IMG/VR virus record: IMGVR_UViG_3300033993_000945
Span: 1 to 29,259 of that record
Reading direction: 5' to 3' (one strand)
From: a virus
Length of the DNA stretch: 29,259 nt
A program made the position numbers and the translations under genes. The stretch's first letter is position 1; the number at the start of each line of letters is the position of its first letter. Below, one piece after another: positions 2 to 6,068 of this stretch. The notes beneath the pieces were generated by a model. It was given only the letters and a program-made list of their open reading frames with translations, did no database searches and was not told where the DNA came from.

Positions 2-1174
2 ATCCAGCCGACGCCTGACCCAACGGAGTATCGGCAGGACGAGATTTTTCATCTTCGCTGGCTTTCATCCGACGGGGTGACAGGGTACCTGCCAACTACC
101 CTGTCGCGAGACGCGATCGGCTTGGCGCGAGCTACGGAACTGCACTCCGGCAGCTTCTTCGGGCACGGCGCGCAGGTCGGAACCTACATCGAAACCGACC
201 AGCCTCACAAACCCGAGGTGCTCGCCCGGTTCAAAGACCAGTGGAATGACGCCCATCAAGGGCCGGACAAGGCATACAAAACCGTCATCATGCCGTTCGG
301 CTTTCACCGCAAGCAGGTCGAAGTCAGGAACGACACGTCTCAGCTCGTCGAGACCAGACGCTTTCAGTTGGCTGAAGTGGCACGCTGCTATCGTGTGCCA
401 CAGTATTTGATCGGCGACTTGTCGGATGTTCGGCACAGTACCGTCGAGCAGCAGGCGATCGACTTCGTCACGTTCTCGCTGTTGCCCTGGTGCCGGCGGT
501 GGGAGATGGCGTGTCGGCGAGACCTCGTGGTCGACGACAAGCAGTATTTCTGTCAGTTCGACTTGAACTCGCTGATGGCCGGCGACTACGCCGCGCGGTC
601 GCAGTTCATTCGTGAGATGGCGAACCTCGGCGCTCTCGACATCGACGAGATTCGCGCGCAGATCGGCTACAACCCGCTCCCCGACGGCGTCGGAAAGAAG
701 CGGTTCATTCAGGTGAACATGCAACTGCTGGAGGCGTTCACGCTTGAGAACCCAACCGGCCAGAAGCCGCAGACTCCCGCTCCCCAGGGCAGCGTTGACG
801 GGCCGCCGGAACCGACGGTTGGCGATGCCCCCGACAGAGAAGACGCCCCCGACGCCCGCCAGATCGCAGGAGCCGAAGTTGTCTTCAAGACTTCTCTCCG
901 GCGACTCGCCGCCATCGAGGCTGACGGCGTCCTTGAGCGACGCAATAAGCCCGAGAAGCTTGCTGCGTGGCTTGATCAGATGACCGGCCGGATGCGTGAA
1001 GAGCTTCGCGAGTCCGCACAGGCTACCGGAAGAGACATCGACAAGTTCGTGGGCTCGTGGATGAGTCGCTCGCGAGAACTCCTGCTCGAGTGCCATCGCA
1101 GCGGCCAGAAGTACGAATCAGTAACCGAGGACTGGTGCGACAAGCACCTGACGAGCGATGCCACAAGCACCTGA
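2..1174 (+). CDS. Phage portal protein, HK97 family (5'-truncated)
   Basis: The reading frame is open from base 2, so the N-terminal part of the protein lies outside the window. The visible 390 codons match the C-terminal half of HK97-type portals: an E-x-I-F-H-L-R-W stretch followed by SSDGVTGYLP, then Ala/Arg-rich helices, a FARFKDQWND-like wing helix, a R-x-F-Q-L-A-E-V-A-R helix followed by Y-R-V-P-Q-Y-L-I-G-D, and an E-Q-Q-A-I-D-F-V helix leading to LLPWCRRWE. These are the usual landmarks of this family. The portal dodecamer is the DNA gate at one head vertex and binds terminase and connector. The last ~130 residues are a Pro/Asp-rich tail plus charged helices, less conserved. The stop overlaps the next gene by 17 nt, implying translational coupling. 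Family assignment is firm; the true start is not visible. Confidence 0.9.
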   Translation: MQPTPDPTEYRQDEIFHLRWLSSDGVTGYLPTTLSRDAIGLARATELHSGSFFGHGAQVGTYIETDQPHKPEVLARFKDQWNDAHQGPDKAYKTVIMPFGFHRKQVEVRNDTSQLVETRRFQLAEVARCYRVPQYLIGDLSDVRHSTVEQQAIDFVTFSLLPWCRRWEMACRRDLVVDDKQYFCQFDLNSLMAGDYAARSQFIREMANLGALDIDEIRAQIGYNPLPDGVGKKRFIQVNMQLLEAFTLENPTGQKPQTPAPQGSVDGPPEPTVGDAPDREDAPDARQIAGAEVVFKTSLRRLAAIEADGVLERRNKPEKLAAWLDQMTGRMREELRESAQATGRDIDKFVGSWMSRSRELLLECHRSGQKYESVTEDWCDKHLTSDATST

Positions 1175-1631
1175 AGGCGTGATCGACGCCCTGCAAGCCT
1201 CCGTTCGGCTGCACATGACCGCGATTGAACACTATCAGTCGCTGGCCGAGCACTTCGACCGCTGGGGCTACGGCAAACTTGCCGACACGAGTCGCGGCGA
1301 GGCCGAAGAGGAACGCCGGCATCTGCATGAGGTTCAGGCGCGGCTCGAATACTACGACGTTCAGCCGACCTACGACCACGACCAGCCCGATTGGCCCAGG
1401 CACGACTACGAGGGCATCCTCGCAGCCAACCTCTCGCTTGAAACCGCCGCCGCGGAGGTCGAGCGAGCCAACGTGGCGGCCTGCCGCGCCGTCGGCGACG
1501 AGATTTCTGCCGTCATCTTCACTCAGTTGCTCGAAGGCAGCGAAGAAGCGGTGGCGGCGATCGAGGCAAAACAGCGTGTTATCGAACAGATCGGTCTGGA
1601 CAACTACCTCGCGAATCAGGTGACGGCATGA
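1158..1631 (+). CDS. Bacterioferritin-like protein in the head operon
   Basis: 157 aa, aligning by eye to E. coli bacterioferritin (158 aa) over nearly its whole length without gaps, offset by one residue. Shared landmarks are the A-I-x-x-Y of helix A, W-G-x-x-K-L, the E-x-x-R-H of helix B, L-x-L-E of helix C, and a C-terminal I-E-Q-I-G-L-D-N-Y-L that is close to the bacterioferritin ending. Of the six di-iron ligands, three are kept (E52, H55, E95). The other three appear changed: E18 to H19, E127 to S128, H130 to A131, although E129/E130 lie adjacent. The haem-ligand Met52 is Arg53. The fold is therefore probably a ferritin four-helix bundle with a partial or altered metal site. It sits between portal and prohead protease (17-nt and 4-nt overlaps), so it is made with the head proteins. 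A structural, iron-carrying or iron-sequestering role is inference. Confidence 0.8.
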   Translation: MPQAPEGVIDALQASVRLHMTAIEHYQSLAEHFDRWGYGKLADTSRGEAEEERRHLHEVQARLEYYDVQPTYDHDQPDWPRHDYEGILAANLSLETAAAEVERANVAACRAVGDEISAVIFTQLLEGSEEAVAAIEAKQRVIEQIGLDNYLANQVTA

Positions 1632-3298
1632 GCAACGAGATTGAGCGGCGCACGACGGTTTCGGACGCGACGATCGAGTACCGAGACATGGGTAACGGCG
1701 AAAAAAAGCCCGTGATTTCGGGCTACGCCGCCGTTTTTAACGCCGAAAGCCGCAACCTGGGTGGCTTCATCGAGACGATTCACCCGAATGCGTTCGACGA
1801 AGTGCTCGCCGAGAACCCCGATGTCATCGGCGTGTTCAATCACGACCGCAACCTGCTGCTCGGACGTACCGGAAATGGTACTATGCGACTCAAGAAAGAC
1901 CCGTATGGGCTTCGCTACGAGATCACGCCGAACGAAAACACCTCCATCGGCCGCGACGTGGTCGAATGGGTGAAGGATCGGACGGTTGTCGGGTCCAGTT
2001 TCGCCTTCGCGATCAAGCGAGAAGGCGGTGATTCGTGGTCGACGGACAGTCAGCGTGGTCTTCGCAGGCGTGAGGTGCGTGCGATCGGGCTGCTCGAGGA
2101 CGTTGGGCCCGTGGTTCGGCCCGCATACGACTCTTCCAGCGTGGTTGTGAGCCGTCGAGCCATCGAAATGGCCCTGGGTGAGTCATTCCGGCCCATCCAG
2201 ACGATGGCGAATGCGTCGAAGCGCGGCCTGAAGCTGGCCCAGAGGCACGAAAGCATCGATTCTCGCCTTCTTTGCATCGCCGAACGAGTCGCGAACCGCG
2301 AAATCGTCAGTGTCGAGGAGGTTTCGTACCTCTCCGGCGTCTACGAGCGGTGTTTGGCGGCGAAAGTGACGGGCTGGTCAGGCTCGCCAGCCTGGATCGA
2401 GTGGCAACTGGCCGGCGGCGACGCTGGCGAGAAGTGGGTGGATCGGCGTGCTGCTTCCGCGCCCGCGGAGGCAGCCCCGTCGGTGGACTCTTCTGCTGAA
2501 ACCACCCCCGAGGCTGCCTCAGATGAGACCCGCGCCGCCTCCGACGTAAATCTGAAGCCCACCGCGGGCATGGCAGCCGCCGCGAAGCGCGGTCTGGCCC
2601 TGCACGAGGAGGGCCGATCGGGCGACGGGCTGAAGCCTGAGACGGTGGCCCGTGCCGGCAAGATCGCCGCACGCGAAGAACTGACGCCCGAGCACGTTCG
2701 CGAGATGCGAGCGTGGTTCCGACGCCACAAGGTCGACAAGAGACCCGGCTGGTCGAATAAGGGCGAGGAAACGCCAGGGTACACCGCCTGGATGCTGTGG
2801 GGCGGCGATCCAGCGTGGCGGTGGAGTGAGGCCAAGGTCTCGCAGATCGAGCGGGCGAGCGGCAAACGTGACATCGGCGAAGACGGCGTCGAAGGTGAGT
2901 ATGCGGACACGCTGTCGGCGGTGAACCTCGCGCTTGCGGAGTGCTACGAGGGCATCGCCGAGGAGTACGGTCCCTGGAGCCCGGATGACGCTCACTACAT
3001 GACCGAGAACCCGTTCGCAAATGACGGATTGAAGTGCAGCAACTGCGTCTTCTTCGAGTCCGAGGAAGGCAGATGCTACATCGTGAGTGGAGAAATTGCG
3101 GCCGACGCCGTGTGCAAGCTGTGGATCATCCCCGAGGAACGTATGAGCGCAGAAGAGAAGAAGCCGGAGCCGGTTGATGACAAGCCCGCCGAGGACATGC
3201 GTGCGGAGCAGGAGAACATCGACATCGCCGTCAAGCTCGCGAACCTGAAGGCGACAATTCTTCGGACTCAGTTGCACGGCGCAAGTCAAGGTCGCTAG
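1628..3298 (+). CDS. HK97-type prohead protease with long multi-domain C-terminal extension
   Basis: 556 aa; starts at an ATGA overlap. Residues 1-185 are the S78/U35-type prohead protease: SGYAAVFN near the start, catalytic-type His72 in V-F-N-H-D, Ser124 in S-S-F-A-F, and a L-L-E-D-V-G-P-V-V-R-P-A-Y strand. It should cleave the capsid N-terminal scaffold domain during maturation. Usual family length is about 200 aa; the remaining ~370 aa are extra. Residues 193-274 and 315-404 are two diverged copies of one domain (KRGLxL start, GW then A/W-rich GGD end), linked by an Ala/Ser/Glu-rich stretch. Residues 470-496 hold C470-x2-C473-x9-C483-x12-C496 followed by K-L-W, spaced like a high-potential iron-sulfur protein. 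The end is charged. The extension could act as an internal scaffold or be a fused structural protein; this is inference. Confidence 0.88.
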   Translation: MSNEIERRTTVSDATIEYRDMGNGEKKPVISGYAAVFNAESRNLGGFIETIHPNAFDEVLAENPDVIGVFNHDRNLLLGRTGNGTMRLKKDPYGLRYEITPNENTSIGRDVVEWVKDRTVVGSSFAFAIKREGGDSWSTDSQRGLRRREVRAIGLLEDVGPVVRPAYDSSSVVVSRRAIEMALGESFRPIQTMANASKRGLKLAQRHESIDSRLLCIAERVANREIVSVEEVSYLSGVYERCLAAKVTGWSGSPAWIEWQLAGGDAGEKWVDRRAASAPAEAAPSVDSSAETTPEAASDETRAASDVNLKPTAGMAAAAKRGLALHEEGRSGDGLKPETVARAGKIAAREELTPEHVREMRAWFRRHKVDKRPGWSNKGEETPGYTAWMLWGGDPAWRWSEAKVSQIERASGKRDIGEDGVEGEYADTLSAVNLALAECYEGIAEEYGPWSPDDAHYMTENPFANDGLKCSNCVFFESEEGRCYIVSGEIAADAVCKLWIIPEERMSAEEKKPEPVDDKPAEDMRAEQENIDIAVKLANLKATILRTQLHGASQGR

Positions 3299-3312: not shown

Positions 3313-3346
3313 CATTGCCTCACGACGGATGTCGTGAGGGGCAGTG
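3313..3346 (+). promoter_or_regulatory. Strong hairpin in the leader of the capsid gene
   Basis: A perfect 9-bp stem (3318-3326 with 3331-3339) closes a GGAT tetraloop. The stem can alternatively extend to about 14 bp by pairing 3313-3319 with 3340-3346 (one G-U pair, two-base bulge). No T-run follows, so it does not look like an intrinsic terminator. It lies 15 nt after the protease stop and about 100 nt before the capsid start. RNA processing, stability or translational control are possible. Confidence 0.6.
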
Positions 3347-3353
3347 CGAGCGA

Positions 3354-3367
3354 CTTGAGGATTCAAG
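3354..3367 (+). promoter_or_regulatory. Second small hairpin in the capsid leader, GGAT loop
   Basis: A 5-bp inverted repeat (CTTGA/TCAAG) with a GGAT loop. It follows the larger hairpin by 7 nt and repeats the same loop sequence. Stability alone is modest; its interest is the matching loop. Confidence 0.4.
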
Positions 3368-3381
3368 CACGCGGCGCGCTA

Positions 3382-3424
3382 GCGGGATCACCCGCCGGCC
3401 GCCGCGATTGTGCGTTTGGCCGGC
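3382..3424 (+). promoter_or_regulatory. Alternative GC-rich hairpins just upstream of the capsid ribosome binding site
   Basis: GCGGG at 3382-3386 pairs with CCCGC at 3391-3395 (loop ATCA). GCCGGCC at 3394-3400 pairs with GGCCGGC at 3418-3424 (17-nt loop). The two stems share two bases, so they compete. The second stem ends 7 nt before the AAGGAG at 3432-3437, leaving the ribosome binding site exposed. Confidence 0.45.
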
Positions 3425-3446
3425 TCAAACCAAGGAGCAGGCCAAA

Positions 3447-4799
3447 ATGGCGTCGAATCTCAAGCGTCTTCAGGAACGTGCAGCGGCTGTCGCCGCTCGG
3501 ATGACCGAACTGTCCGGTATCGAGGATCGCTCGGCCGAGCAGACCAAGGAACTCATCTCGCTCGGCACTCAGGCCGACGACCTGAAGACCTCCCTGGACT
3601 TCGAGGAGCGGATCGCCGCGAAGGAAGCCGAACTGCGGGCCGTGGTCGAGAAGGCCGCCCCTGCCCCGGCTCCGGCTGCTGAAGTCGCCGCGAAGGTCGA
3701 GGAGAAGAAGGTCGAGATTCGTTCGATCCAGCCTCACCACACCAGCCTGCGTGCATTCAACGACGGCCCCGAGGCTGTCGAGAGTGCCTACCGCTGCGGC
3801 AGGTGGCTCCGGGCTCACATCTTCAAGAACGCCGAAGACCTCCGGTGGTGCAAGGATCACGGCGTCGAGAACCGCGCGATGGGCGAGAACAGCAACGCTT
3901 CTGGCGGTGCTCTCGTCCCAGAGGAGTTCGCTTCTCGCGTGATCAGGTTGGTGGAAAATTTCGGCACCTTCGCAGCGAGCAATGTCGAGAAGGTGACGAT
4001 GACCCGCGACACGATGATCATCCCGAAGCGTGTCACGGGCACCACGGCCTACTTCGTCGGCGAAGGCACCGCGGTGAGCGAGAGCGAGCCGACCTACTCG
4101 AACGTGCAGCTCATTGCCAAGAAATTGGCCGTGGGAACCCGCATGTCGAGCGAGGTGGTGGAAGACGCTCTTGTGTCGATCGCTGATGCCGTGGCTACGG
4201 AGTTCGCGACGAGCTTGGCCTACAAGACCGACTTGGTCGGCTGGCTCGGCGCGGGCGACTCTGCTTCGGGCGGAATCTACGGCGTGGTGCCGAAGGTCAA
4301 TGACGGCACGCACAACGCGGGCGTCGTGACTGCCGGTGCTGGTGCCACGGGCTTCGAGACCCTGACCGTGACCGACTTCATCAAGGTCATCGGCAAGATG
4401 CCTCTCTACGCCCGCCAGGGTGCAGCGTGGTACATCTCGCCGGCCGGCTTTGCTGCCTCGATGGCCCGCCTCCGCTACGCGGCCGGTGGCAACACCGTCG
4501 AGCAGGTCGGCGGTGGCGTGACCGAGCAGTTCATGGGATTTCCTGTGAACTACGTTCACGTCCTCGACGGCACGCTCGGTGCCGATCCGGGCAAGGTCAA
4601 GGTTCTCTTCGCGAACCTGGGTCTGTCCAGCATCTACGCTCGTCGCCGCGACTTCGCAGTGCGGATGTACGACCAAGTCTACGCCACGACCGATCAGCTC
4701 TTGCTCCAAGGCACGATGCGGTTCGACGTGGTTCATCACTCGCTCGGCGACAACACGACCGCCGGCCCCGTGGTTGCTCTCAAGTCCGCGGCGTCGTGA
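3447..4799 (+). CDS. Major capsid protein, HK97 fold
   Basis: 450 aa. The ATG at 3447 is chosen over the in-frame upstream start at 3315 because AAGGAG lies at 3432-3437 with proper spacing, and the upstream 44 codons are the hairpin leader. Residues 1-~105 are a charged coiled coil plus Ala/Pro/Glu-rich linker, the delta (scaffold) domain expected to be removed by the protease. The shell begins around residue 140 with N-A-S-G-G-A-L-V-P, then V-T-M-T-R-D-T-M-I-I-P, A-Y-F-V-G-E-G, and the long spine region with K-K-L-A-V-G-T-R-M-S-S-E. The C-terminal half has W-Y-I-S-P-A-G and a final R-M-Y-D-Q-V-Y. All are typical of the family. It forms the icosahedral shell. No lysine/asparagine crosslinking can be judged by eye. 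Confidence 0.93.
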   Translation: MASNLKRLQERAAAVAARMTELSGIEDRSAEQTKELISLGTQADDLKTSLDFEERIAAKEAELRAVVEKAAPAPAPAAEVAAKVEEKKVEIRSIQPHHTSLRAFNDGPEAVESAYRCGRWLRAHIFKNAEDLRWCKDHGVENRAMGENSNASGGALVPEEFASRVIRLVENFGTFAASNVEKVTMTRDTMIIPKRVTGTTAYFVGEGTAVSESEPTYSNVQLIAKKLAVGTRMSSEVVEDALVSIADAVATEFATSLAYKTDLVGWLGAGDSASGGIYGVVPKVNDGTHNAGVVTAGAGATGFETLTVTDFIKVIGKMPLYARQGAAWYISPAGFAASMARLRYAAGGNTVEQVGGGVTEQFMGFPVNYVHVLDGTLGADPGKVKVLFANLGLSSIYARRRDFAVRMYDQVYATTDQLLLQGTMRFDVVHHSLGDNTTAGPVVALKSAAS

Positions 4800-5339: not shown

Positions 5340-6068
5340 ATGCTGATGCGAGTAGGCAACGTCGAAGCGGAAATCAAAGTCGCGGCGGTCATGTCGACCC
5401 CGCGACTGGGATTCACCGACAACTTTTTCTGCGTCTCGTCGGCACTGGCCCCGCATGGCATCAGTCCCATCAAGGTGACGGGTGCTTTCTGGGGCCAGTG
5501 CCTTCAGCGAGCGATGGAACAGGTCATCGACTCACACGACGTGATCCTGACCGTCGACTACGACACGGTCTTCAACGCGAAGACGGTCGAGGCGTTGCTG
5601 ACGCTGCTGATGCACTCTGGTTTCGACGCAATCGCGCCGCTCCAGACGAAGCGGGAGGCGAACGCCGTGATGTTCGCCCTGGCAGGAAGCGACGCTGACG
5701 AGAGGACGACGGTCGACGGCGAATTCTTTGGCAAGGTGGTGCAGCCGGTCGAGACGGCACACTTCGGGCTGACGTTCCTGCGAACCGCCGCCCTGAAGAA
5801 GATGAAGAAGCCCTGGTTCATCGCTCGTGCGAACGACCAGGGCGAGTGGAACGGCGGGCATACCGACGAAGACATCGCCTTCTGGAAGTCCTGGGCGGCC
5901 TGTGGGAACACGCTGGGGCTAGCTACGCACGTCAGCGTCGGGCACGCCGAGTTGATGGTGACGTGGCCCTCAAGGAGCGCCGATGGCGGCAAGGTGCAGC
6001 AGCACACGACCGAGTATTGGACGAACGGCCAGAAGGCACCGGAAAACGCCTGGGGGCAGGTCAATTGA
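5340..6068 (+). CDS. Glycosyltransferase, GT-A fold (GT2-like), in the head module
   Basis: 242 aa. ATG 5340 lies 6 nt after AAGGAG. Residues 60-80 include V-I-L-T-V-D-Y-D-T-V-F, a DxD motif (D73, D75) at the end of a beta strand, as used by GT-A enzymes to hold the metal and sugar nucleotide. Later come A-H-F-G-L-T-F-L-R-T-A-A-L near residue 142, and H-T-D-E-D-I-A-F-W near residue 178, which has the form of the catalytic-acid region. The final part has V-G-H-A-E. There is no membrane segment, so it acts in the cytoplasm. Its place between decoration protein and connector genes suggests a head or tail protein may be the acceptor, but modification of a host glycan is not excluded. Sugar donor unknown. 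Confidence 0.7.
   Translation: MLMRVGNVEAEIKVAAVMSTPRLGFTDNFFCVSSALAPHGISPIKVTGAFWGQCLQRAMEQVIDSHDVILTVDYDTVFNAKTVEALLTLLMHSGFDAIAPLQTKREANAVMFALAGSDADERTTVDGEFFGKVVQPVETAHFGLTFLRTAALKKMKKPWFIARANDQGEWNGGHTDEDIAFWKSWAACGNTLGLATHVSVGHAELMVTWPSRSADGGKVQQHTTEYWTNGQKAPENAWGQVN

Follow-up and report, generated by a model that had tools for sequence, protein, structure and literature searches.

What does a bacterioferritin-like gene do in the head operon of a phage? The question is raised by a stretch of 29,259 nucleotides of IMG/VR virus record IMGVR_UViG_3300033993_000945 (the window), in which an earlier note, made from the sequence alone, had placed a bacterioferritin (Bfr) homologue between portal and protease genes and called its ferroxidase site half-eroded. 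The note suggested a structural capsid protein or a particle-linked iron carrier, the latter as a head-linked twist on the Ferrojan horse hypothesis, which concerns tails. The head genes of the window are the following.

2..1174, + strand: portal gene, open at the window start (PF04860, E 6.6e-54)
1158..1631, + strand: bacterioferritin-like gene, 157 aa, ATG to TGA (Pfam Ferritin, model and fold match)
1628..3298, + strand: S78 prohead protease gene (PF04586, E 3.3e-37)
3315..4799, + strand: major capsid gene, HK97 type (PF05065, E 4.2e-25)

The profile matches bear out the placement, with PF04860 upstream and PF04586 downstream of the ferritin gene. The ATGA-type coupling that had been described holds at the 3' side, where the ferritin TGA (1629-1631) overlaps the protease ATG (1628) as ATGA, but not at the 5' side, where the portal end (1174) overlaps the ferritin start by 17 nt. 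For the capsid gene (3315..4799) a TTG start is listed, and an internal ATG is likelier. A weak glycosyltransferase-like gene (5340..6068; PF13632, 21.8 bits, below the cut-off of 27) lies between the capsid and head-tail adaptor genes.

The gene encodes a bacterioferritin fold

The window protein matched Pfam Ferritin (PF00210) at an E-value of 1.4e-12 and 48.2 bits, above the curated cut-off of 24.5. Fifty PDB sequences matched at E<=1, named bacterioferritin, ferritin or ferroxidase. The best was the Achromobacter Bfr 5zur (E 1.2e-14), aligned without gaps over residues 8-156, and the C-terminal IGLDNYL is present. PHROGs held no match at E<=0.1. An AlphaFold2 model built from 42 aligned relatives had a mean pLDDT of 95.6 and five helices, of which 8-36, 39-65, 84-111 and 115-145 form a four-helix bundle and 147-152 follows. 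Superposition on solved Bfrs (50 entries listed) gave Z-scores of 22.9-24.2 and rmsd values of 1.0-1.4 Å over 152-156 residues, with 5zur at Z 24.2 and 1.0 Å. The homology claim of the note, which had named a profile search and structure prediction as checks, therefore stands on both, and a true bacterioferritin fold and descent is well supported. A chance match or composition artefact was ruled out by the profile match, the model and the relatives found in viral contigs.

Relatives in viral contigs and cellular genomes

Scanning viral contigs with the single protein found 54 loci, while a profile scan found 208 relatives; the analysis went on with the best 80. Residue counts below refer to these best 80 of 208 plus the window (81 sequences, 64 distinct), all of which had intact frames. 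Bacterial and archaeal genomes yielded five loci, all in metagenome-assembled genomes (MAGs). L119 has Glu127 and His130 and is an ordinary Bfr, which leaves four loci in the family. Distant members were seen on Chitinophagia and Alphaproteobacteria MAG contigs (L117:897-1364 and L118:3067-3534), where His stands in place of the haem Met. Unknown genes of phage-like character surround one of them, and genes for a dehydrogenase and a glycosyltransferase the other.

A close relative was also sought among isolated phages, where only six of 50,697 phage records matched at E<=1, all below 60% identity. Four of the six are named 'Acinetobacter phage MD-2021a', are 134-240 kb long and carry genes annotated as bacterioferritin. 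These records look like bacterial DNA.

The ferroxidase and haem sites are changed in a fixed way

Residues were numbered against an E. coli Bfr reference sequence identical to 1bcf. E52, H55 and E95 align with E. coli E51, H54 and E94 (codons checked), H19, S128 and A131 with E18, E127 and H130, and R53 with the haem ligand Met52. All residue assignments of the note, including Arg for the haem Met, are correct by this alignment.

1212..1214, + strand: His19, replacing ferroxidase Glu18 (His in 81 of 81 viral members)
1311..1322, + strand: Glu52, Arg53 (haem Met place) and His55 (Glu 81, Arg 80 and His 81 of 81)
1440..1442, + strand: Glu95, equivalent to E. coli Glu94 (Glu in 55, Asp in 26 of 81)
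1539..1550, + strand: Ser128 to Ala131, at E. coli Glu127/His130, including Glu129 (Ser128 in 81, Glu129 in 80 of 81)

The dinuclear ferroxidase centre (E18/E51/H54/E94/E127/H130) is incomplete in all 81 sequences, which carry His19, Ser128 and Ser, Ala or Gly at 131; of the six ligands, two have been lost and a third has become His. Position 131 is Ser in 53, Ala in 22 and Gly in six members and His in none. The haem Met52 position (53) is Arg in 80 and Gln in one, never Met. The haem pocket has also changed among the viral members: Ile49 is replaced by Glu in 47 and is never Ile, and Phe26 is replaced by Gln, Asp, Glu, Thr or Ala. The inner-surface His (position 47) is found in none of the 81. 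The distant members L117 and L118 have Val at position 95.

Many of the counted positions are invariant in all 81 sequences: His19, Tyr26, His32, Arg35, Trp36, Gly37, Glu52, His55, Arg62, Glu64, a fixed Arg-His-Asp at 81-83, Glu102, Asp114, Ser128, Gly146 and Asn149. The patterns of the profile scan require either H32 with R35-Y38 or R62-D67, so these positions are partly fixed by the search and the invariance of R62 is not a fully free observation. H19, E52, H55, S128, E129 and E136 lie outside the patterns. The dN/dS ratio was 0.06-0.17 to nine relatives of 77-94% identity, and 0.25-0.42, at a dS of about 1, to three relatives of 55-65% identity. Together with the fixed residues, this indicates that the site is kept under selection in its present form. 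It is not half-eroded, since H19, E52, H55 and S128 are fixed in 81 of 81 and the losses on helix D are common to planctomycete Bfrs (see below). A decaying or chance remnant without function would fit the repeated loss of the gene in relatives, but the dN/dS to the nine closer relatives, the fixed residues and the 81 intact frames make it hardly credible, and we reject gene decay.

In Bfr, E18, E51 and H54 are the ligands of one iron, E94 and H130 those of the second, and E51 and E127 bridge the two. By this chemistry, H19/E52/H55 would keep one metal position and abandon the second, and the triad, with Glu or Asp at 95, is probably a single-metal site. The lost ferroxidase ligands and the lack of His at position 47 in all 81 also weaken the idea of an iron carrier in the Ferrojan sense.

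These changes bear on whether the gene could be an auxiliary metabolic gene for an ordinary viral bacterioferritin, with iron storage through ferroxidase activity. The Pfam Ferritin match and the Bfr fold would agree with this, and viral Bfr genes have been reported (PMC10904782). According to a passage of that report, the Bfr described there is likewise viral and under purifying selection, but was assigned to an archaeal host and is described as oxidising Fe2+; the passage names neither a place in a head operon nor a changed site. Against ordinary storage, two of six ligands and the haem Met are gone and a third ligand is changed in every one of the 81 members. We therefore consider it very improbable, in agreement with the note, which had doubted an ordinary host-type iron store. 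Ferroxidase activity should not be assumed when a virome gene is annotated as bacterioferritin.

The family is related to planctomycete bacterioferritins

Where did the changed site come from? The group names of the genome sets used here (Planctomycetota and others) were inferred via L116, L117 and L118. In 392 genomes of the L116 phylum (Planctomycetota), the family was present only in the L116 genome, while 19 others had ordinary Bfrs (E<=1e-20). These 19 keep Glu18, Glu51, Met52, His54 and Glu94. Both helix-D ligands are replaced by Ser (E127S and H130S) in 13 of the 19, and by Thr/Ser in two more, although the profile by which these rows were selected, as its best matches, has Ser at 128 too. 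The loss of both E127 and H130 was found in none of 24 Pseudomonadota and none of 24 Bacteroidota rows (the 24 best of 78 and the 24 best of 33 other matching genomes, respectively). Single changes did occur: E127 is Thr in nine of the 24 Pseudomonadota rows, which retain His130, and H130 is Asp in one Bacteroidota row.

A tree of 82 rows placed the 14 phage-family rows in one group (100/100), on a long branch. Support of 99/94 separated these rows, together with 17 of the 19 planctomycete rows, from all others. Constraining all 19 planctomycete rows to group with the phage rows cost 6.0 log-likelihood units (p-AU 0.37), which neither rejects nor establishes such a grouping. Given the shared losses and the tree grouping, a planctomycete Bfr is the probable source of the E127 and H130 losses. 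The phage family's own steps would then be the change of E18 to His, of Met52 to Arg and the charging of the haem pocket.

In the tree, the planctomycete MAG copies L115 and L116 fall within the family, which is mostly viral, next to L029; the contig of L029 (locus L075) carries an integrase. Barring wrong binning of these contigs, the gene has therefore also passed between phages and cells. The surroundings of L115 include a PfkB kinase, a GntR-type regulator and ankyrin repeats. The frame of this copy (L115:9884-10465) extends upstream, and the added stretch resembles a signal peptide by eye. We also looked for the host via prophages, where the window portal found only portals of 23-34% identity, in 13 of the 392 planctomycete-group genomes. 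A planctomycete host is therefore not proven.

Contacts of the 24-subunit cage are partly kept

A passage of PMC3179174 names Arg61, Glu128 and Glu135 among the contacts that hold the Bfr 24-mer, where changing them gives dimers, and likewise names Tyr114 and Arg30. Glu129, the equivalent of Glu128, is kept in 80 of 81 viral members, and the other two equivalents are listed here.

1341..1343, + strand: Arg62, equivalent to cage contact Arg61 (81 of 81)
1563..1565, + strand: Glu136, equivalent to cage contact Glu135 (80 of 81)

Equivalents of the E. coli assembly residues R30, K33, Y45, D56 and Y114 are not kept, and E60 is found in 29 of 81. As Tyr114, Arg30 and other assembly residues are missing, a full 24-subunit cage is not certain. 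Judged by the contact residues kept in the sequence, assembly into such a cage is likely but not sure.

The kept contacts also allow a different use of the subunit. It might mix into host Bfr cages, dilute their ferroxidase and haem sites and so free or block iron late in infection. Besides Arg61, Glu128 and Glu135, the kinship with planctomycete Bfrs would agree with this, and hetero-Bfrs with specialised subunits exist, as passages of PMC6529640, PMC12120770 and PMC8945002 describe. However, residues of the two-fold (haem) interface are now charged, unlike those of host Bfrs, which speaks against mixed dimers, and the planctomycete host is not proven. Cages of two dimer kinds could still form, but we regard such a host-directed subunit as quite improbable.

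The gene is frequent in head operons and repeatedly lost

The survey of gene order that the note had proposed found its arrangement widely repeated. The portal gene lies directly upstream of the ferritin gene in 73 of the 81 viral loci. In 72 of these 73 the protease lies downstream (65 by a distance rule and seven added by eye: L027, L084, L088, L089, L095, L097 and L098), and the remaining contig (L057) ends first. The order portal-ferritin-protease thus recurs in 72 of 81 viral loci.

The remaining eight members are away from a recognised portal. Among them, L101 adjoins a primase and a helicase, L111 a helicase, and L075 is near an integrase; a scan of the neighbours of L079 gave no result. 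In the tree, relatives of the non-portal L100, L102, L105 and L106 stand beside L111. The S78 protease was absent from seven of the eight contigs, which are possibly fragments.

A second survey started from the protease and used the best 80 of 88 relatives, many of them on contigs shared with the ferritin set (best 80 of 208). Ferritin was present in 62 of the 80, and 16 had portal and protease without ferritin. Two loci (L199 and L205) begin inside the protease and were dropped, leaving 78 informative loci. The gene lies between portal and protease in 61 of the 62 ferritin-bearing loci; L196 is cut before the portal. Ferritin is thus absent from 16 of 78 informative head cassettes and does not occur in every member. 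On the protease tree, this pattern needs at least six gains or losses, five of which are forced by well-supported branches. Ferritin distances correlated only moderately with protease distances (r 0.46), compared to r 0.88 between protease and portal.

Three of the ferritin-less loci carry scars. The protease domain of L197 is identical to those of L032, L040 and L174, which all have ferritin. L197 keeps the first and last ferritin codons in what by appearance is a clean in-place deletion, and its flanks are 98.2% (943 bases) and 94.7% (3342 bases) identical to those of L040. The 55.9-kb L197 contig held no other ferritin by a query that finds the family in 10 of 10 other records. L163 (3860-4010) has a natural fusion, in which the C-terminal end of the portal is continuous in frame with the final residues of the deleted ferritin, and L203 retains a ferritin tail in the portal-protease interval. 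The sequences thus record at least three losses. A pattern scan for scars found none in the other 13 of the 16 loci, where original absence is possible.

These results run against the suggestion that the protein is a structural part of the capsid: the gene is missing from 16 of 78 cassettes, three of them scarred, and eight of 81 members are away from the portal. A structural capsid role is unlikely.

The constant place in the head operon could equally mean that the protein is linked to the virion as cargo or as a minor head protein, a packaged or attached cage that carries metal or guards DNA in the manner of encapsulins. The recurrent portal-ferritin-protease order (72 of 81 viral loci), the overlapping frames and the nearby HK97-type capsid gene would all fit. 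So would gp217 of the Vi01-like phage Sajous1, a ferritin-like phage protein like that of the window, which passages of PMC10892097 describe as detected by mass spectrometry and as a proposed part of a 'ferrojan horse'. It differs in that its proposed operon includes a tail completion protein and that it was identified by fold prediction at 22% identity; infection by this phage was independent of TonB or FeoB in the host tested. Two host Bfr peptides were also found in CsCl-purified AXL1 virions, as a passage of PMC9206674 reports. Encapsulin cargo ferritins and Bfrs (passages of PMC8346489) likewise pair a ferritin-like gene with an HK97-fold shell gene, but here the shell is a phage capsid with portal and protease, and the protein has no targeting-peptide extension. 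The window protein and the alignment rows shown extend, by eye, no more than two or three residues beyond the part homologous to Bfr. A virion-linked role is further opposed by the absence of the gene from 16 of 78 cassettes, by its loss in L197 between flanks 94.7 and 98.2% identical to those of L040, and by the eight members off the portal, seven of them on contigs (possibly fragments) without the S78 protease. We consider it unlikely; packaging of the protein, if it occurs, would give phages an equivalent of the ferritin cargo of encapsulins.

A proposed accessory role

The reading that we favour, with about as much doubt as belief, is an accessory, haem-free, Bfr-like metal-binding cage of planctomycete-type descent that is made with the head proteins and is not essential to the shell. 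An ancestral planctomycete-type bacterioferritin gene would have been acquired as an accessory phage gene. The subunit fold and the dimer-locking residues of the 24-subunit cage would have been kept, and the haem ligand and dinuclear centre lost, so that H19/E52/H55 with Glu or Asp at 95 may bind one metal per subunit. Because its frame overlaps those of portal and protease, the protein would be translated together with the head proteins, presumably late in infection. In the infected cell the cage might then bind free Fe2+ or another divalent metal and so protect the DNA and proteins being assembled. We infer cage assembly, the number and kind of metal, the time of expression and the benefit to the phage. 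That related phages do without the gene and some relatives carry it elsewhere argues for a helper rather than a capsid wall, and its repeated loss suggests a useful but dispensable gene rather than a shell component.

A more specific proposal joins the single-metal site to the two destinations weighed above. A haem-free cage with a single-metal His2-carboxylate site, derived from a planctomycete bacterioferritin and produced together with the head, may be packaged in the HK97-fold particle as metal cargo, or may join host Bfr cages and so seize the cell's iron store late in infection. We regard this as possible but doubtful.

How does the accessory cage that we favour compare with known bacterioferritins? 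The family shares with the Bfrs of E. coli (1bcf), Achromobacter (5zur) and planctomycetes the whole-length fold, equivalents of Glu51, His54 and Glu94, the Arg61, Glu128 and Glu135 contacts and the IGLxNYL ending, and with most sampled planctomycete Bfrs also the E127 and H130 loss. It differs from Bfr in the change of E18 to His and of the haem Met to Arg, in its charged haem pocket, its fixed Arg-His-Asp at 81-83 and its place mostly in head operons. Magnetospirillum Bfr2 is also a Bfr subunit with changed ferroxidase ligands, but contributes haem binding, according to passages of PMC6529640, whereas the phage family has no haem Met.

In the literature covered, which included few subscription papers, we found no description of a ferritin between portal and prohead protease, and the passages of PMC4981718 and PMC10980836 contained nothing on the family described here. 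Viral Bfrs have already been reported; the combination of a head-operon Bfr, changed sites and kept cage contacts was new to us. With 208 relatives in viral contigs, the family offers an extensive and testable example of phages taking a metal cage into their head operon. Natural deletion pairs, fixed site changes and kept cage contacts are available for comparison, and make the question of whether phages handle or carry iron directly testable.

Additional domains in prohead proteases

The window protease (1628..3298) has a C-terminal four-Cys domain (3035..3115) that resembles high-potential iron-sulfur proteins (HiPIPs). A profile of this tail from 41 relatives matched the HiPIP 3h31 in the PDB (E 6.1e-5). 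Pfam HIPIP matched 37 of the 41 members at E<=1 (best 7.6e-5), with the window at 15.3 bits, below the cut-off of 22. The AlphaFold2 model of the tail had low confidence (pLDDT 58.5). These sequence matches would make the tail an iron-sulfur module of a head protease; the literature covered described no HiPIP in a phage. A link between tail and ferritin was considered, but the four-Cys tail is present in 52 of 58 complete proteases with ferritin and in nine of 11 without, and no link was found.

Three BFVD proteins annotated as prohead proteases (A0A6J7XDU5, A0A6J7WIS1 and A0A6J7WPK9) weakly matched the ferritin model (E 4.5e-3 to 1.7e-2, TM by query 0.65-0.72). They have ferritin/Dps-like helices in the same kind of head gene, but joined to the protease. 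These model matches hint that ferritin-like parts may have met the prohead protease gene more than once.
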